DNA of 64,000 nucleotides from Clostridia bacterium (GTDB lineage Bacteria; Bacillota; Peptococcia; DRI-13; SM3-B62), in the NCBI GenBank assembly GCA_018433675.1, contig JAHDQS010000014.1, positions 62,001-126,000 on the forward strand, in the 5' to 3' direction. A program made the position numbers and the translations under genes. The notes below the pieces were generated by a model, which was not told the origin of the DNA, made no database searches, and was given only the letters and a program-made list of their open reading frames with translations. Position 1 is the stretch's first letter. Each line of letters begins with the position of its first letter. Positions 35,095 through 49,032 of the stretch are shown one piece after another.

Positions 35095-35465
35095 CATGAG
35101 TATGCTGGATGACCGCGGGTACAAATGCCGAAAGGCTGTATCTGAGGAAAGTCCGAGCTCCTTAGGGCAGGGTGCTGGGTAACACCCAGTGGAGGCGACT
35201 CCAAGGAAAGTGCCACAGAAACATACCGCCGATGGCCGGATTCCGGCACAGGCAAGGATGGAAAGGCGAGGTAAGAGCTCACCAGCAGCCAGGTGACTGG
35301 CTGGCTCGGTAAACCCCACCCGGAGCAAGACCGAATAGAGGAGCAACGGAACGGCCCGTTCCGCTCCCGGGTAAGGTCGCTTGAGGTGTCAGGCAACTGA
35401 CATCCCAGATAAATGGTCATCACCCCTCAGGGGGAGACAGAACTCGGCTTACAGGCATACTCATG
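35095..35465 (+). ncRNA. rnpB: RNase P RNA
   Basis: The catalytic RNA that matures tRNA 5' ends. P1 is formed by CATGAGTATGC at the 5' end and GCATACTCATG at the 3' end. The universal core is visible as GAGGAAAGTCCGAGCTCC (35140s) and ACAGAACTCGGCTTACAG (35435-35455), and the AGATAAATGG segment near 35408 is typical. About 371 bases, a normal size. The layout suggests the ancestral A-type class rather than the Bacillus B type. A -35-like TTGCAC (35044) and TAAACT (35068) may be the promoter. It is the only sizeable plus-strand transcript between 25 and 64 kb. Confidence 0.95.
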
Positions 35466-35478
35466 TCATCTTGCTTTT

Positions 35479-42226: not shown

Positions 42227-42973
42227 TCATTTTGCAATGATCCTATCTGCTAAAACTCGGTAAACTCCGGCCAATGAAGAATCAGGCATACCCTCTATCA
42301 CTGTCTGATTCCTTTCTTCACAATACTGCACGGTCGAATCTCGCGGGATTTGGATTACCACTTCTGTTCCCAACTCATCTGCCATTCTCTCAACTATGGC
42401 TAATTCATTAGGCACACCTCTGGAATTTAAAATTATTCCCATCAAACGTGCATATTCTCTGCCTTTGAATTGCTCTATTGCCTTGGCAATGTTTCTTGCA
42501 GCAAAAAGAGACATTTTTTCTCCCGACGTAACAATGTATACTTCTTTGGCATACCCCTTCCTAAGAGGCATCGCAAAGCCACCACATACCACATCACCCA
42601 AAACATCATACAATACGACATCGGGCTGTTCCCGTTCGAATACCTGCAGCTTCTCCAATATTTCAAATGCGGAAATAATTCCTCTTCCCGCACATCCTAC
42701 TCCGGGGGTAGGTCCTCCGCATTCAGCACAGAGTATGTTTGAATATCCGCTAAATACTATATCTTCAAAACCGATATTATTCTTCTTTTCTTTCAATACA
42801 TCCAGTATTGTAGGAAGCTCCTTGCCATTGACCAAACTGCATGTGGAATCCGCCTTGGGATCACATCCTATCTGCATTACTTTCTTGCCTTTTTCCGCAA
42901 GTGCCGCCGCTAGATTAGACGTTGTGGTAGATTTCCCTATTCCGCCTTTTCCGTAAATAGCTATTTTTCTCAT
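42227..42973 (-). CDS. NifH/BchL-like ATP-dependent reductase component
   Basis: The 248-residue protein is a nitrogenase-superfamily iron protein: an ATP-driven electron donor with a [4Fe-4S] cluster bridging a dimer. The P-loop is [20 protein letters not shown] is switch I, and the two cluster cysteines occur in [12 protein letters not shown] and [15 protein letters not shown]. All residues needed for ATP-driven transfer are present. The ATG at 42973 (MRKIAIYG) is used; an ATG three codons earlier is possible. It is the last gene of a riboswitch-controlled operon and overlaps the K-like gene. Canonical NifH is excluded by context: no nifB, nifEN or true nifDK is present. It should reduce the D/K-like partner encoded just upstream. 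Confidence 0.93.
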
Positions 42974-44241
42974 ATCCTCCATACCTCCGGGTGCTGGTTC
43001 ACACTGTTAACCAGTGTTTGAATGATATACCCATCTCCTTTAAATCCCAAAAAAGGCGTGCCGTCATGAAAATTGTAATAATCAAAAGAAGGAAAAGCAG
43101 CATGGATTTTGATAGGAACTTTGGCAGCAATCTTTAACTCATAGGTGTTTCCAAAGAAGATATGCAAATTATTATTCTCAATACTATCCTTTAAAGCATT
43201 AACATCCGGCTCTATCAATATTTTGCCGATACCCAACTGTTGAAGTTCTCGCGCTGTTCTTTCCTGTAATTTGGACGCCTGGATAACGGCTAATCTTACA
43301 TCCATTTCGCATTCATTGATTAGGAAATCCGCCAATCCTTTCACGTATTCATTTGAACCTGATACTCCAATACGCAGCCTGTTGAAAGGTTTCATAAATG
43401 AAGTAAATGCACCCATTGTTTGTCCATATTTTTTTATTTCATCAGCTATCACTGCTCTGTTAATTTTTACTCCGGTCAATTCGGCAATGTTTTCCAGCCA
43501 TTTCACGGTCCCCTTGATACCAAAAGGCATCCCATATAACCATGGTGTACCAAAACGCTTTTCAAGAAGCCTGGCTGTTTCTATGGCTGTATCATACACC
43601 ACAAGATTAAGCTCTGCTTCACTCATCTTCTTGATGGCTCTTAATTCCGTATTCTGCGTAAAAACCGTATTGACACTTATCCCCAATAAGCCAAGCAACC
43701 TCTTGATTTCCTGTAAATCAGATACATGATTAAAACTATCGACTGAAACTCCCAGCAAGTTTACAATCCCGTTGTGTTTTTCCCTGGGTTCTTGAACTAC
43801 TTCACCGGCAAGGCTTAAGAACACCTCCTCTATTCCATCCCTGTAACTCCCTCGAAAACCCCCGCCGGGAAAGGTCAGCAGCTTTGCCTTTATATCCTTT
43901 CTCAACTCATCCGCAATCCCATTTATATCAAGCCCTATTACCGAGGTAACCCCTGTTGCTACAATAGATAGCAATTTGGGCTGATAAAGCCTATCCACCT
44001 CTTTGACAGCAGTAATAAGCTTTTCTTCTCGGCCCATTACAACGTCGTCTTCATCAAGACCGGAAGAAAATAGCTTTCCTTTGGGCTTGAGGCGGTTTAG
44101 TATCCCAAAATTCACAGTATTATAGGCAACTGTTCCCGTTGAACCATGTTCTACCACTTTAGCATCCTTTATTCCCGCTAATGCCCATAATACTCCAAAA
44201 TAGTCCGACGGAACGGGAAAGCTGTTTTCTAAATAATCCAT
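42970..44241 (-). CDS. Nitrogenase-like component 1 subunit, NifK/BchB-like, cluster cysteines absent
   Basis: A 423-residue oxidoreductase/nitrogenase component 1 protein. [11 protein letters not shown] at 31-41 lines up with the NifK HGSQGC motif and with the BchB segment that carries the Asp ligand; here the position is T37. [10 protein letters not shown] (66-75) and [11 protein letters not shown] (96-106) match the following superfamily motifs, with Gly where NifK has a P-cluster Cys. The only Cys in the protein is in INECEMD, far from the cluster sites. [12 protein letters not shown] sits where NifD has its FGP/active-site region, but no FeMo-co Cys or His is recognisable. It is encoded directly after the D-like subunit and overlaps the H-like gene. 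Confidence 0.9.
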
Positions 44242-45576
44242 TTAGACCGCCCCCCATTTTTTTACGATTTGTTCTTTGTACAACAGTGTTTTATAACCTG
44301 GCGGAGTTTTGCCTAAAAGCTCGAGAACCTCTTTTAAGGCCGAAAAGCCTGTTTTTCTGAATACCAGCATGAGATTTTTAGGTTCAATCCCCATTTTCGC
44401 AAAATGTTCTATATCACCATTTCCTATATAAAAATCGGGCTGCAATCCTGTGAGGAATATTTCATTTTGCAATGTATTACCGGCATCGATTATCGGAAAA
44501 TCATACCCGGCTGCTTTAAGCCTTTTGATATCCTCCCAATCATCTCTTAAGACCTCTCTGAGAATCATCCCTTTTATCTCCATCCCCAATAATAAAAGTA
44601 ATTCTGCTAAATCAAAGTACCTTCCGCTCTGTACGCCCTGAAGCATCCCTATCACACAAGATTTCCCTGCAAAGTTGGTTTTCAGCCTTCTCATTTTTTC
44701 TTGCACTTCATTTTTCATCTCTTGTATTTCATCCTTGAGGTTTATTTTGAGGGCTTCTGCGATCCTGTTATACATTCTTGCTATTTCATCCGGCGTATAC
44801 GGTCTTTCACAATATACATATTTGCATCCAAAACGGGCCTGCATCTCTTCAGCAAGTGCCAGGGAAGACTGTTCCATAACCAGGTTAAGCTCTGCAGCCG
44901 GTGCTTTTTCAAGCTCCTGCGGAGTACAAAATGAGGGAAATACATTTTTAACAATAATCCCTTTTTCGTGCAAAAGCTTTACCAGTTCCGTCTTTTGAGG
45001 CTTTTGAATCCGCAAGCCTAAAATGTTTATGGCGTTTTTCTCGGTTTTCTGCGGTTTCATAAGATTTATTAAGGCAAGAGAAGTATTTTCCAGACCCGGA
45101 GCCGCACTGTCACAAGTGAAATTTTCCGTATGTATCCCCAGCAAAGGCACAGCAACCTCTTTTGCCGTCTCTTCAAGCAATGAATCAAAATCTTCACCAA
45201 TGATTTCTTGAAGACAGGTTGTTACAATAAACAATACTTCCGGTTTATAACGGGTACATATATCTTTGATAGCCGTTTTTATTTTATCGGAGACGCCAAA
45301 GATTATATCTTGGTTTGAAAAAACCAAGAATAAAAGATTATTAGGTAGAGGCTCATCTGTTAAAGACCTAATACTCATTGTAAGCTTGGCATTATAAAGG
45401 CATATCTCGGGGCCGAGCAAAAGAGCATAACTGTTCTTAATAAGCGGCAATGTACCTGCGACTGCCCTGAAAGCACATGGCGAACCGGGGAACTGTGCTT
45501 GTGCGGTTTTTTCAAATACCCTATCCATATTCAAATCTCTTAACCATACTGCCTTTTTCATCAACTCACCGATCAT
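44242..45576 (-). CDS. Nitrogenase-like component 1 subunit, NifD/BchN-like, with Cys triad
   Basis: A 444-residue component 1 protein. Three cysteines occur at C34 (PGSPCAF), C59 (GPEICLYN) and C121 (VTTCLQEIIGED). The spacing 25 and 62 almost equals BchN of protochlorophyllide reductase (C26, C51, C112). This predicts a [4Fe-4S] cluster held mainly by this subunit, as in DPOR, rather than a P-cluster. Residues 275-305 are strongly charged and helical. No NifD-type C275/H442 cofactor ligands are seen. The ATG at 45576 follows GAGG; a TTG at 45582 is less likely. It follows the ABC ATPase by about 30 bp. Confidence 0.9.
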   Translation of the reverse strand: MIGELMKKAVWLRDLNMDRVFEKTAQAQFPGSPCAFRAVAGTLPLIKNSYALLLGPEICLYNAKLTMSIRSLTDEPLPNNLLFLVFSNQDIIFGVSDKIKTAIKDICTRYKPEVLFIVTTCLQEIIGEDFDSLLEETAKEVAVPLLGIHTENFTCDSAAPGLENTSLALINLMKPQKTEKNAINILGLRIQKPQKTELVKLLHEKGIIVKNVFPSFCTPQELEKAPAAELNLVMEQSSLALAEEMQARFGCKYVYCERPYTPDEIARMYNRIAEALKINLKDEIQEMKNEVQEKMRRLKTNFAGKSCVIGMLQGVQSGRYFDLAELLLLLGMEIKGMILREVLRDDWEDIKRLKAAGYDFPIIDAGNTLQNEIFLTGLQPDFYIGNGDIEHFAKMGIEPKNLMLVFRKTGFSALKEVLELLGKTPPGYKTLLYKEQIVKKWGAV

Positions 45577-45608: not shown

Positions 45609-46382
45609 CTACGCATATCGTGCTTTCAGCGGTACAATATATGGTCTTTCTTGAACATTACCTATTTCAACTTCTACATCATATACCTTTAGAATATTAT
45701 CCTTGGTTAAAACCTGCTCCGGTGTTCCATATGCAACGATCTGTCCCTTATCCATCATCGCAATTTTGTCGGAATAACGGGCTGCGATATTCAAATCATG
45801 AACAACCATAATAGAAGTGATCCGATACTTTTCCGAAAGCTTTTTTATTAATTCCATTACTTCCAATTGGTGCTTGATATCCAAATTGCTTATAGGTTCA
45901 TCCAGCAAAAGGATTTTGGTTTCCTGAGCAAGAGCCCTCGCTATAATGACCTTTTGCTGCTGTCCGCCACTGATTTCATTAAAGTTTTTCATTGCCAGAT
46001 CTTCAATCCTTAACACTTTTAATGCATCTAAAGCTTTATTCAGATCATTTTCACTGCTTCTCCATGACAGGTGGGGGCGCCTGCCAAGCAAGACCATATC
46101 AAAAACCTTCAGCGGAAAAAGACTCATTTGGGACTGTGGCACATAGCCGACCTTCCTGGCAATTTCTACCCTCTTCATATCTGCTATGTTTTTGCCATCG
46201 ATCTCAATCCCGCCTTTTTGGGGAGACAACAATCCAATGATGCATTTTACTAATGTTGATTTACCCGCACCGTTAGGCCCTATGATTGATATGCATTCAC
46301 CTGAGGCAACATCCAACATTACCTTATTTAAGATTCTTATGTCTGCATAATTGAATTCCAAATGATCAACTTTGACCACCAT
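45609..46382 (-). CDS. ABC transporter ATPase (FecE/BtuD type)
   Basis: A 257-residue ATPase of the siderophore/cobalamin class. Walker A is GPNGAGKST, the Q-loop region YVPQSQMS, the signature SGGQQQK and Walker B ILLLDEP, followed by VVHDLN. It drives the FecCD-type permease encoded upstream; start and stop overlap (TAATG). The downstream genes are the nitrogenase-like subunits, so the transporter and reductase are made together. Cobalamin/corrinoid is favoured by the riboswitch, with heme, other tetrapyrroles or a siderophore as alternatives. Confidence 0.92.
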   Translation of the reverse strand: MVVKVDHLEFNYADIRILNKVMLDVASGECISIIGPNGAGKSTLVKCIIGLLSPQKGGIEIDGKNIADMKRVEIARKVGYVPQSQMSLFPLKVFDMVLLGRRPHLSWRSSENDLNKALDALKVLRIEDLAMKNFNEISGGQQQKVIIARALAQETKILLLDEPISNLDIKHQLEVMELIKKLSEKYRITSIMVVHDLNIAARYSDKIAMMDKGQIVAYGTPEQVLTKDNILKVYDVEVEIGNVQERPYIVPLKARYA

Positions 46383-47479
46383 TAAAAGCCCCCCCTTTTC
46401 ATCTTTAGGATGAGATAGATAAACAGTGGGACTCCCATGAATGCTGTCATAACGCCTATCGGTATTATTACCGGCGCAATAATATTCATGGCCACAATAT
46501 CGGAACCTGCCAGCAGAAAAGCTCCTAATAATCCTGACACGGGAACAACATACCTGTTATCTCCCCCAATAAGCATCCGTGTAATATGAGGTGCTACCAA
46601 GCCGACAAAACCAATAGCTCCTGTAAAGCAAATGGTTGCAGCTGTTACAAAAGAAGCCACGATCATCAGGCTCATCCTTGTTTTCACAACATTTACTCCC
46701 AGGCTTTTGGCGGCATCGTCTCCTGCTCCAATTGAATTTAAATCCCACGATTTGTATATCAAATAAGGCACACAAATCAAAAATGCGGGAAATATGTATT
46801 TCAAGGTATCCCATGTACCCTTGGAAAGACTCCCTACCATCCAAAACACCACTTGATTGACGGCCCATGAGTCAGCAAAATATTCCATAAGTGTTGTCGC
46901 CGCACTAAAAAAATAGGAAAGAGCTATTCCGGTAAGGATCATCATTTCCGGAGTCGCTCCCTTCCTTTTTGCCAGCATCATGATTACAAAAGATGTTAAT
47001 AACGCGAAAAGGAAAGCATTTGCCACAACAAAGTATGTGCCGCTCCCTATGCTCTTACCCAGAATAATTGCCAGTGCCGCTCCGAAACCCGCGCCCGAGG
47101 AAATACCCAACGTAAACGGACTTGCCATAGGATTCCTTAACACCGGTTGCATAACCGCCCCGGCTATTGCCAAACAACACCCAACAAGCAGTCCTGTCAA
47201 AAGTCTGGGTATGCGAACAAACCATACCGCCCCTTCTATAAGTTCTACGGGAGAAGCAAAAAAGGAAGGGAAAACCTTATGTGCAATTACCTGATACGCA
47301 TCTTTTGCTGTCATATCCAAAGGCCCGATGACAACTGCAAACGTGCTCAGTGCAATAATTGCAGCTATCATTAATAGTATCAAAAACATTTTTTTTGCAT
47401 TTGACTTTTTGTAGGCCTCCAAAGCCGCCGTATTCGACGGCTTTGGTTCTATGTATAAATTTCCATCAGAATTATTCAT
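46382..47479 (-). CDS. FecCD/BtuC-type ABC transporter permease
   Basis: A 365-residue membrane protein with about nine to ten hydrophobic helices. RIPRLLTGLLVGCCLAIAG and QPVLRNPMASPFTLGISSG are the FecCD signature, as are GFVGLVAPHITRMLIG and the terminal GVPLFIYLI. A cytosolic N-terminal tail of about 25 residues precedes the first helix. It pairs with the ATPase (1-base overlap) and the lipoprotein (9-bp gap). Substrate class: corrinoid, heme or iron-siderophore. Confidence 0.92.
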   Translation of the reverse strand: MNNSDGNLYIEPKPSNTAALEAYKKSNAKKMFLILLMIAAIIALSTFAVVIGPLDMTAKDAYQVIAHKVFPSFFASPVELIEGAVWFVRIPRLLTGLLVGCCLAIAGAVMQPVLRNPMASPFTLGISSGAGFGAALAIILGKSIGSGTYFVVANAFLFALLTSFVIMMLAKRKGATPEMMILTGIALSYFFSAATTLMEYFADSWAVNQVVFWMVGSLSKGTWDTLKYIFPAFLICVPYLIYKSWDLNSIGAGDDAAKSLGVNVVKTRMSLMIVASFVTAATICFTGAIGFVGLVAPHITRMLIGGDNRYVVPVSGLLGAFLLAGSDIVAMNIIAPVIIPIGVMTAFMGVPLFIYLILKMKRGGF

Positions 47480-47488
47480 ATCATCATA

Positions 47489-48628
47489 CTACTCCCACTT
47501 ATATAAATTAAGAAAATCGACCATTTCCGTATATACCCCATCCACTCCATAAAATTTCTTGAGGGTTTCGTTGCCCTCCTTTTCTACATTTAACGAAGCA
47601 AATTTGTCCGGATACATTATTTTGGCAAGATACAATACTTCCGTGACACCTGTTGCAGGGTCCCATCCTCTCATAAAACCCTTGGTAGGATAAACCTTTT
47701 TTTCTTTAATTGCCTGTACACCTTGAATAACAGGGTCGTTCAGAATACTTTCTATGGTATGCCAGCCTTCACTGTCCTTCATCCCTGTATGTTTAAATAT
47801 TATCTCCGGATTCCAGGCTGCAATCTGTTCTTTGGTGATCTTATACGATTCATGCGGTTTAATGGCGGCATCAGCTGCCACATTCTTTGCCCCTGCCATT
47901 TCAAGCGGTTCATAATCAGCATTGGTTCTTGGGTCGCCAATAAAAGGCCGTGCCCAGAAAAAAACCCGGTGTTTTTCTTCTTCCGGAATATTATCCGTAA
48001 TATCCGTTACCTTTTTTATTTTTTTCTGACAGAAAGCTATCAGCTCTTCCGCCCTTTCTTCTTTACCCACAATTTTCCCGGCAAGCCTCAAAATCTCAAA
48101 ATCTAAAGATCCATCGCCTCCTATACATACTACCGGGATATTTGTTTGTTTTTGCAAGGTATCGGCTAATTCTTTCATATCCTTTTGCATAAAAATAACA
48201 TCGGGTTGTAAAGACATCACCAACTGCGCATTAGGCTCTTTATAGCTTCCAACATTAGTCACATTTTTTAATTCAGGTGCAGCTTTCGGCACTATCACAT
48301 AGCTATTGCCACCGTTTTCCCATTCAAATATATCGTGATCCATATCACTCATTCCAACTAAGGTGTCCTGCGCTCCCAATTCAACTAAGGTGCGAACACC
48401 GTCCAAATACGTTAAATCAACGATCCTTTCGGCATACTGTTTTATCTCTACTTCTCTGCCTGCATAGTCCTTTATTTTTATGACTTTTTCATCAATTGTT
48501 CCCGTTGACTCGGAATATCCTTCTGAGCCTTGGGGATCATTTCCTGCATTTTCTCCACACCCTGTCAGACTTAGACAAAAGGCCACGACCAATAAAATAA
48601 CTATAAAGCTTTTCATTTTTTTATTCAT
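47489..48628 (-). CDS. Lipoprotein substrate-binding protein (BtuF/FecB type)
   Basis: The 379-residue protein starts with a lipoprotein signal peptide (MNKKMKSF, a hydrophobic stretch and lipobox LTGC at about residue 24), then an acidic Ser/Gly linker and a periplasmic-binding-protein type 2 fold: VKIKDYAGREVEIK, ERIVDLTYLDGVRTLVELG, QPDVIFMQKD and DPVIQGVQAIKEKKVYP. It would capture the substrate outside the cell for the permease/ATPase pair. The ATG at 48628 is seven bases after AAAGGAG, so I prefer it to the ATG at 48646. It is the first gene after the cobalamin riboswitch. Confidence 0.9.
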   Translation of the reverse strand: MNKKMKSFIVILLVVAFCLSLTGCGENAGNDPQGSEGYSESTGTIDEKVIKIKDYAGREVEIKQYAERIVDLTYLDGVRTLVELGAQDTLVGMSDMDHDIFEWENGGNSYVIVPKAAPELKNVTNVGSYKEPNAQLVMSLQPDVIFMQKDMKELADTLQKQTNIPVVCIGGDGSLDFEILRLAGKIVGKEERAEELIAFCQKKIKKVTDITDNIPEEEKHRVFFWARPFIGDPRTNADYEPLEMAGAKNVAADAAIKPHESYKITKEQIAAWNPEIIFKHTGMKDSEGWHTIESILNDPVIQGVQAIKEKKVYPTKGFMRGWDPATGVTEVLYLAKIMYPDKFASLNVEKEGNETLKKFYGVDGVYTEMVDFLNLYKWE

Positions 48629-48663
48629 AACGATTCTCCTTTTCATTGCTATTAAATCTCAAC

Positions 48664-48690: not shown

Positions 48691-48771
48691 AAAGCGCAGA
48701 CAACTAATAAAACTGTCATTGCAAATATAACCACCCCCCATCCTCGCGAGCGAATTGATTAAGTCTTTTAC

Positions 48772-48925
48772 GGCAGGTCTCCTGGCTTGGTCTCATCTTG
48801 ATATTGCGCCTTCCCGTTATATAAACAGTGGCATCAGCAATTCAATCAACCTCACAGTGGCGGGACCGCAACGGATTTTAACCGTTTTCCCTTTTCAGCA
48901 TAATTTATATGCACCGTAATGATTG
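48772..48925 (-). promoter_or_regulatory. Cobalamin riboswitch aptamer
   Basis: Read on the minus strand, the conserved elements appear in order: CGGTGCAT, GAAAAGGGAA, AATCCGTTGCGGTCCCGCC followed by ACTGTGAGG, then TGATGCCACTG, GGGAAGGCG, GATGAGACCAAG and finally the B12 box CCAGGAGACCTGCC (around 48772-48786). This is the full class of cobalamin (AdoCbl-type) element. A terminator follows, so high cobalamin should switch off the transporter and the nitrogenase-like genes together. The riboswitch region fills most of the 490-bp gap between rpoD and the lipoprotein gene. Confidence 0.95.
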
Positions 48926-49032
48926 CACTATTAACTTTTTCTCGATACTCATCATACACTATTTTTATAAAATTTAAAACCTTTTTTTACAATATTTATC
49001 AAGTTTGAGCCTTCTTAAATCAGTCTCTTTAT

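Follow-up and report, generated by a model that had tools for sequence, protein, structure and literature searches.

A nitrogenase-like operon behind a cobalamin riboswitch: a possible reductase for imported metallotetrapyrroles

Background

Nitrogenase-like proteins of unknown function are widespread in anaerobic bacteria and archaea. One such set is encoded in the window, the whole stretch of 64,000 nucleotides from a Clostridia bacterium that was analysed here, in which genes for two nitrogenase-like catalytic subunits (D and K) and a NifH-like reductase (H) follow the genes of an importer. Which cluster does this enzyme (HDK) carry, and what would a nitrogenase-like machine do beside an importer? 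A preliminary description, made from the DNA alone, had compared the cysteine spacing of D with that of BchN, the corresponding subunit of DPOR, and had concluded that D holds a simple [4Fe-4S] cluster and a tetrapyrrole-type active site instead of a P-cluster and FeMo-co.

Results

Operon structure and leader

Six genes on the minus strand form a compact operon. They encode the substrate-binding lipoprotein (SBP) of the importer (47489..48646; Peripla_BP_2, Pfam PF01497, 81 bits), a FecCD-type permease (46382..47479; PF01032, 293 bits), the importer ABC ATPase (45609..46382; PF00005), D (44242..45576; PF00148, 198 bits), K (42970..44241; PF00148, 273 bits) and H, a NifH/CfbC-like ATP-dependent reductase or Fe protein (42227..42982; Fer4_NifH, 317 bits). 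The fourth gene, D, starts at ATG 45576 (alternative TTG 45582), and its TAA stop codon (44244-44242) directly abuts the ATG of K in the junction sequence. The P-loop of H and its cysteine motifs GCAGRG and DVVCGGF align to NifH. The best NCBIfam neighbours of the permease are BtuC models and that of the ATPase is the haem ABC ATPase NF010068, all below their cut-offs (NF003001, 222 bits vs 334; NF010068, 240.7 bits vs 261). No biosynthetic, bch, nifB-like or target-enzyme gene was seen among the operon genes.

The operon leader contains a cobalamin (B12) riboswitch aptamer (48755..48933, minus strand), which matches Rfam RF00174 over its full length (model positions 1-189; 120.9 bits, E 1.6e-29, gathering score 31.5) and places the operon in a corrinoid regulon. 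Reading along the strand, the riboswitch (48933-48755) is followed by a terminator-like hairpin with a T-run, detected by a consensus scan (48690-48670, minus strand), and then by the SBP start at 48646; the hairpin is likely the expression platform. This evidence covers the whole operon and says as much about the importer as about HDK, if not more. The genome has six cobalamin riboswitches including this leader, and no cobalamin riboswitch above threshold was found at the locus of the closest bacterial relative (L039) or at the f29 loci. A consensus search of the window for a Fur-box gave no match. Elsewhere in the window, positions 35097-35467 hold a complete bacterial class A RNase P RNA (314 bits).

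On the same contig, outside the window, a further cobalamin riboswitch precedes genes for an SBP, a permease, an ATPase and a CobN-type chelatase (G000:C44:30507-37367, L123). The genome also encodes a second nitrogenase-like H-D-K set (G000:C56:3218-6497, L048), whose D has two cysteines and whose K has a single one, as in the "2+1" type described by Dos Santos et al. 2012; it is followed by an SBP, a permease and an ATPase of its own. On the opposite strand to this second set, a cobalamin riboswitch leads an SBP-permease-ATPase operon (G000:C56:13775-17903, L048 and L122), which ends, a few kb from the second set, in a CbiF/CobM-like tetrapyrrole methylase gene (below cut-off).

The cysteine triad of the D-like subunit

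Counted from ATG 45576, the cysteines of D lie at positions 34 (PGSPC; codon 45475..45477, minus strand), 59 (LGPEIC; codon 45400..45402, minus strand) and 121 (VTTCLQEIIGED; codon 45214..45216, minus strand), with gaps of 25 and 62, just as first described. Because all three are invariant among 14 D homologues with identity down to 29%, the triad is, by conservation, more than chance. In the AF2 model of D (pLDDT 85.9), every triad cysteine is predicted at or beside a helix start, as would be expected for the cluster-binding site of a nitrogenase-type fold.

The values with which this spacing had been compared were also right: BchN has 25/61 (two BchN sequences and 3aek) and NifD has 26/65-66. 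The spacing argument for DPOR collapses nevertheless, because the comparison took BchN and NifD and left out NifE. The NifE of A. vinelandii (C37/C62/C124) has gaps of 25/62, the very values of the window's D; 25/63 is found in 9i0g and 25/61 in two more organisms. D has cysteine in all columns of the BchN triad (25/62 vs 25/61), which is not diagnostic, since NifE has it likewise. Cysteine spacing was accordingly rejected as a discriminator between DPOR and NifEN, the NifE values of 25/61-25/62 overlapping the 25/61 of BchN.

In one superfamily alignment, a first gap of 25 occurs in BchN, NifE, NifK, NifN, CfbD (measured between aligned columns) and all D-like rows, a gap of 26 in NifD only, and a gap of 24 in three K-like rows. 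NifK and NifN carry P-cluster-type cysteines, and NifE is the scaffold for the FeMo-co precursor. Since this metallocluster scaffold has the same spacing, the spacing of D is no pointer to a tetrapyrrole. A first gap of 25 is also present in MarD (C66, C91), a real P-cluster holder (PMC12552129).

The K-like partner and the cluster type

A better guide to the cluster is the partner subunit. At the three P-cluster cysteine columns of NifK and NifN, the alignment places Ser12, Thr37 and Gly97 of K, with no cysteine at all; K homologues have Ser, Thr and Gly/Ala/Ser/Thr there, and S12, D13 and T37 are kept in all 14 of them (alignment A3). The [8Fe-7S] P-cluster of nitrogenase (NifDK, VnfDK and AnfDK) takes six cysteines, three per subunit. 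D has three and K none, which argues against a P-cluster of the usual type because the two subunits together offer three cysteines. A single [4Fe-4S] cluster on the three D cysteines would be the natural reading of these sequences. The earlier view of a simple [4Fe-4S] cluster in place of a P-cluster is therefore probably right, for the reason that K lacks the three P-cluster cysteines and not for the spacing of D.

A similar shift of reason applies to FeMo-co. D has Glu in the Cys275 column of FeMo-co, the cysteine at the cofactor position common to NifD and NifE, and no His in the His442 region. The absence of FeMo-co, once deduced from the spacing, is supported by the loss of these two ligands instead, and it too probably holds.

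The fourth ligand of the putative cluster is a separate matter. In the column of BchB Asp36, which supplies the fourth ligand in DPOR and is also that of NifK Cys95, the alignment gives Thr37 of K (codon 44131..44133, minus strand), invariant in the 14 homologues; judged by these residues, the DPOR ligand set is incomplete in D-K. A candidate for the role is Asp13 of K (codon 44203..44205, minus strand), which lies one residue away from the column of NifK Cys70. In the K sequences of Sporomusa and of genome G016, position 37 is His and Asp13 is replaced by Gly, an exchange that is suggestive but probably reflects one evolutionary event. A D-K fusion model, read through the TAA (868 aa), reached a pTM of 0.67, with very low confidence in the last 59 residues of K; its halves are not oriented as in NifEN (rmsd 27.8 A to 9i0g). 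Distant K sequences were left out of the fusion alignment, since they aligned to the D half when included.

Family scores, fold search and tree

D, K and H score below every curated cut-off of the Bch, Nif and Cfb families. The best NCBIfam match of D is NifE (93 bits, cut-off 505), with BchN at 52 bits (cut-off 420); that of K is BchB (149 bits vs 490), and that of H is CfbC (356.8 bits vs 402), with BchL at 208 bits (vs 345). The CfbD model gave 35 bits (cut-off 268), and the catalytic component, a single gene in CfbCD, takes two genes here. A fold search with D only ranked chains of NifD, NifE and MarD highest, and its top 50 contained no BchN chain, fold scores being poor guides at such distance.

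In the trees, D groups with its homologues from Bacillota and Methanosarcinia, and K likewise with its own, both clades being supported (97/91 and 97/95). A clade of D with BchN is neither joined nor rejected (AU p 0.49); BchN and CfbD are long branches. The DPOR-like spacing had been taken as a sign of kinship, which these results do not bear out: the BchN and BchB scores are far below cut-off, Thr stands at the BchB Asp36 position, BchN chains are missing from the top 50 fold matches and the tree leaves the D-BchN grouping undecided. The nearest relatives come from a Methanosarcinales MAG (49%, with importer, D, K and H in the same order) and from a member of the window's own phylum (50%), and this pairing of archaeal and same-phylum bacterial sequences indicates gene transfer between the domains.

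Gene neighbourhoods of relatives

The neighbourhoods come from a partial sampling of genomes and are examples, not a census. Importer or SBP genes stand beside HDK in almost every adequately flanked locus (the exception, L099, is a short contig end), and nearly all loci have importers of the FecCD/Peripla_BP_2 class. In three Bacillota relatives HDK is linked to NEAT proteins, in two of them together with sortase and flavodoxin, an Isd-like context. The operon of G341 encodes two NEAT proteins, a sortase, H, SBP, permease, ATPase, D, K and a flavodoxin; in G733 a NEAT protein, a sortase and a flavodoxin lie beside HDK, and in G750 a NEAT protein does. NEAT proteins bind haem (PMC5026354).

In Methanosarcinia, a CobN-type chelatase gene follows directly after H in one locus (L101) and after two SBP genes in another (L100). 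Other HDK paralogues of the archaeal genome G428 also precede CobN, in L094 by Pfam match and in L093 by resemblance to L101. HmuS, a relative of CobN, has been shown experimentally to be a reductive haem de-chelatase that releases iron (PMC12583661). For HutW, the radical-SAM haem enzyme, no genome had a match above cut-off, and only generic radical-SAM matches were obtained, a result that speaks neither for nor against that route.

Several other features of these loci may be recorded. G428 (L092-L096) has four nitrogenase-like D-K pairs, most of them beside SBP or CobN, in addition to NifDKEN and a CfbD-like gene, so that at least three cysteine patterns coexist in one cell. In the archaeal genome G657, D and K are each frame-split while H is intact (L102:8295-10587), which is either a pseudogene or an assembly error. 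Small DUF2325 (PF10087) proteins recur near H-D-K genes of two different cysteine types (L041:17918-18202, L118:13853-14158, L119:5530-5805 and L048:1722-2027).

Discussion

A probable reductase for imported metallotetrapyrroles

The operon is best explained as encoding a two-component reductase, driven by ATP and carrying one [4Fe-4S] cluster, that acts on imported metallotetrapyrroles, here probably corrinoids; a probability of roughly 0.58 is given to this reading. We infer the type of the cluster, the class of the substrate and the direction of the reaction from what the locus and its relatives contain: the gene content, the cysteine pattern, the missing P-cluster and FeMo-co ligands, the riboswitch, and the importer, NEAT and CobN neighbourhoods. 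The tetrapyrrole-type active site proposed at the outset thus keeps its place, with other support: the spacing is uninformative, and the cobalamin riboswitch and the relatives beside NEAT proteins and CobN chelatases speak for it.

The operon would combine an importer (SBP, permease and ATPase) with a reductase (D, K and H), both switched on through the riboswitch when corrinoids are scarce. H, an ATPase of the NifH/CfbC type with its own [4Fe-4S] cluster, would spend ATP to pass low-potential electrons to a D-K heterotetramer. There, a single [4Fe-4S] cluster between D and K may be held by the three D cysteines together with a non-cysteine ligand from K or water. The imported metallotetrapyrrole would bind in the space that nitrogenase uses for FeMo-co, where the D-K cluster would hand over the electron to the macrocycle or the metal ion. 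Electron delivery might activate the molecule, whether by taking Co(II) to Co(I) or by stripping an axial ligand reductively, or it might start metal release or remodelling. The substrate would most likely be a corrinoid in the window organism, for which the riboswitch makes it the first candidate, and haem in the NEAT-linked relatives.

Some observations tell against the metallotetrapyrrole reading. The NCBIfam scores of the importer are all below cut-off, the Asp of BchB is absent, the fused D-K model departs from the NifEN arrangement, the L039 and f29 loci yielded no cobalamin riboswitch above threshold, and a Sporomusa locus suggests siderophores rather than tetrapyrroles.

A broader proposal can be offered tentatively, as possible but doubtful. 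In anaerobes, HDK may be the O2-independent counterpart of haem oxygenase and of corrinoid reductases, reducing imported haem or corrinoid for metal release or for remaking the cofactor, with CobN-like chelatases as partners in archaea. If so, a superfamily known for biosynthesis and for nitrogen or sulfur reduction would gain a catabolic or salvage branch, a scavenging role with named substrates for direct biochemical testing. A branch that handles imported haem or B12 would also answer in part how anaerobes use these compounds without O2-dependent enzymes. With the riboswitch found here, and with relatives whose operons carry NEAT, sortase and flavodoxin genes, the question can already be tested.

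Alternative functions

The strongest rival, which is unlikely, is a reductase of ferric metallophores: the same ATP-driven machine would free iron from an imported ferric siderophore, especially a catecholate, whose potential lies beyond the reach of NADPH, and the riboswitch would be a local rewiring. The FecCD/Peripla_BP_2 importers of nearly all loci are consistent with this. The Sporomusa relative mentioned above (L104, Sporomusa termitida plasmid pSPTER; 24% identity, within the same D and K clades) points the same way, its HDK genes standing in a locus annotated for siderophore uptake, beside a gene annotated as a TonB-dependent siderophore receptor and an AraC regulator; an esterase-family gene comes immediately after K. 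Two proteins of the G016 locus, judged by eye, resemble AraC-type regulators. However, these two loci branch off as a subclade of their own, with His in place of Thr37 in the K motif, and none of the genes neighbouring HDK was recognised as one for siderophore biosynthesis. The cobalamin riboswitch of the window, the NEAT proteins of three relatives and the archaeal CobN neighbours also argue against siderophores. Reduction of an imported metal chelate would be a common denominator covering the tetrapyrrole and siderophore readings alike.

Two further roles fit the context less well than siderophore reduction. In de novo tetrapyrrole biosynthesis, the enzyme would reduce an intermediate with a corrin or F430-like ring, in the manner of DPOR, COR and CfbCD. 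DPOR and CfbCD, the closest characterised [4Fe-4S]-only reductases, do use tetrapyrroles (PMC12552129), H is CfbC-like and a CbiF/CobM-like gene lies near the second HDK pair of the genome. This role is nonetheless improbable: the window operon pairs the enzyme with an importer and lacks biosynthetic genes, and the partner conserved across relatives is the importer, not cbi/cob or bch genes.

Still less probable is a scaffold or maturase like NifEN, in which D-K would build or insert a metallocofactor with metal brought by the importer. It would account for NifE being the best match of D and for the shared 25/62 spacing, and metal transport coupled to cofactor assembly was proposed by Dos Santos et al. 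2012 (PMC3464626). Against it, D has Glu at the cysteine position common to NifD and NifE and scores far under the NifE cut-off, the operon has no nifB-like or target-enzyme gene, and the NEAT, CobN and riboswitch contexts point elsewhere.

Membership of the BchNB family proper with a 3Cys/1Asp cluster, as the title of the preliminary description implied, is highly improbable, for the three cysteines with BchN-like spacing, the BchB match of K and the permissive AU test are set against Bch scores far below cut-off, Thr37 in place of Asp36, the same spacing in NifE and the lack of a BchN chain in the top 50 of the D-only fold search.

Comparison with known systems

The nearest described group is the uncharacterised "light blue" clade of Dos Santos et al. 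2012 (Clos_0313/0314 and CLM_0808/0809; PMC3464626). As far as the available part of that paper describes it, this clade and the window are alike in a NifE-like subunit with three cysteines, a NifN-like subunit with none, and a NifH and an ABC-transporter ATPase nearby. From this shared pattern we infer that the window's clade is the same one. The same part of the paper raises, for these groups, the possibility of a DPOR-like Asp ligand; it reports neither a function nor a substrate for the clade and mentions no riboswitch, NEAT or CobN context. The 3+0 cysteine pattern as such was therefore already described in 2012, and the new evidence lies in the genomic context of riboswitch, NEAT and CobN; a search of the open literature found no report tying nitrogenase-like proteins to a cobalamin riboswitch, NEAT, siderophores or DUF2325.

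DPOR (BchL-BchN-BchB), which reduces the C17=C18 bond of protochlorophyllide, resembles the window enzyme in the architecture of H plus two catalytic subunits, in the three cysteines of one subunit and, likely, in one [4Fe-4S] cluster at the interface; a tetrapyrrole substrate is plausible for the window enzyme too. It differs in the Asp of BchB, which is Thr in K, in the sub-cut-off scores and in bch neighbours where the window has an importer. NifEN shares the 25/62 spacing with D (in the NifE of A. vinelandii), supplies in NifE the best NCBIfam match of D, and holds a [4Fe-4S] cluster at the P-cluster site (PMC12552129). Unlike NifEN, the window's D lacks the cysteine at the cofactor position, a nif context is absent, and K has no cysteine ligand where NifN has one or more. 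MarDK, the methylthio-alkane reductase, is set apart by P-cluster cysteines in both subunits (MarK C32/C56/C121; PMC12552129), of which K has none.

CfbCD of F430 biosynthesis is a [4Fe-4S]-only metallotetrapyrrole reductase, and H is closest to CfbC. CfbD, however, is a single-subunit catalytic component, whereas D and K are separate genes in an importer context and score below the cut-off. HmuS needs NADH and no ATP (PMC12583661), it is unrelated to HDK, and the window operon has no CobN. The HmuS/CobN-like de-chelatases and the Isd haem-uptake operons nevertheless share with the window's clade the same setting, in which metallotetrapyrroles are scavenged without O2 by means of importers, NEAT proteins and CobN-like proteins.
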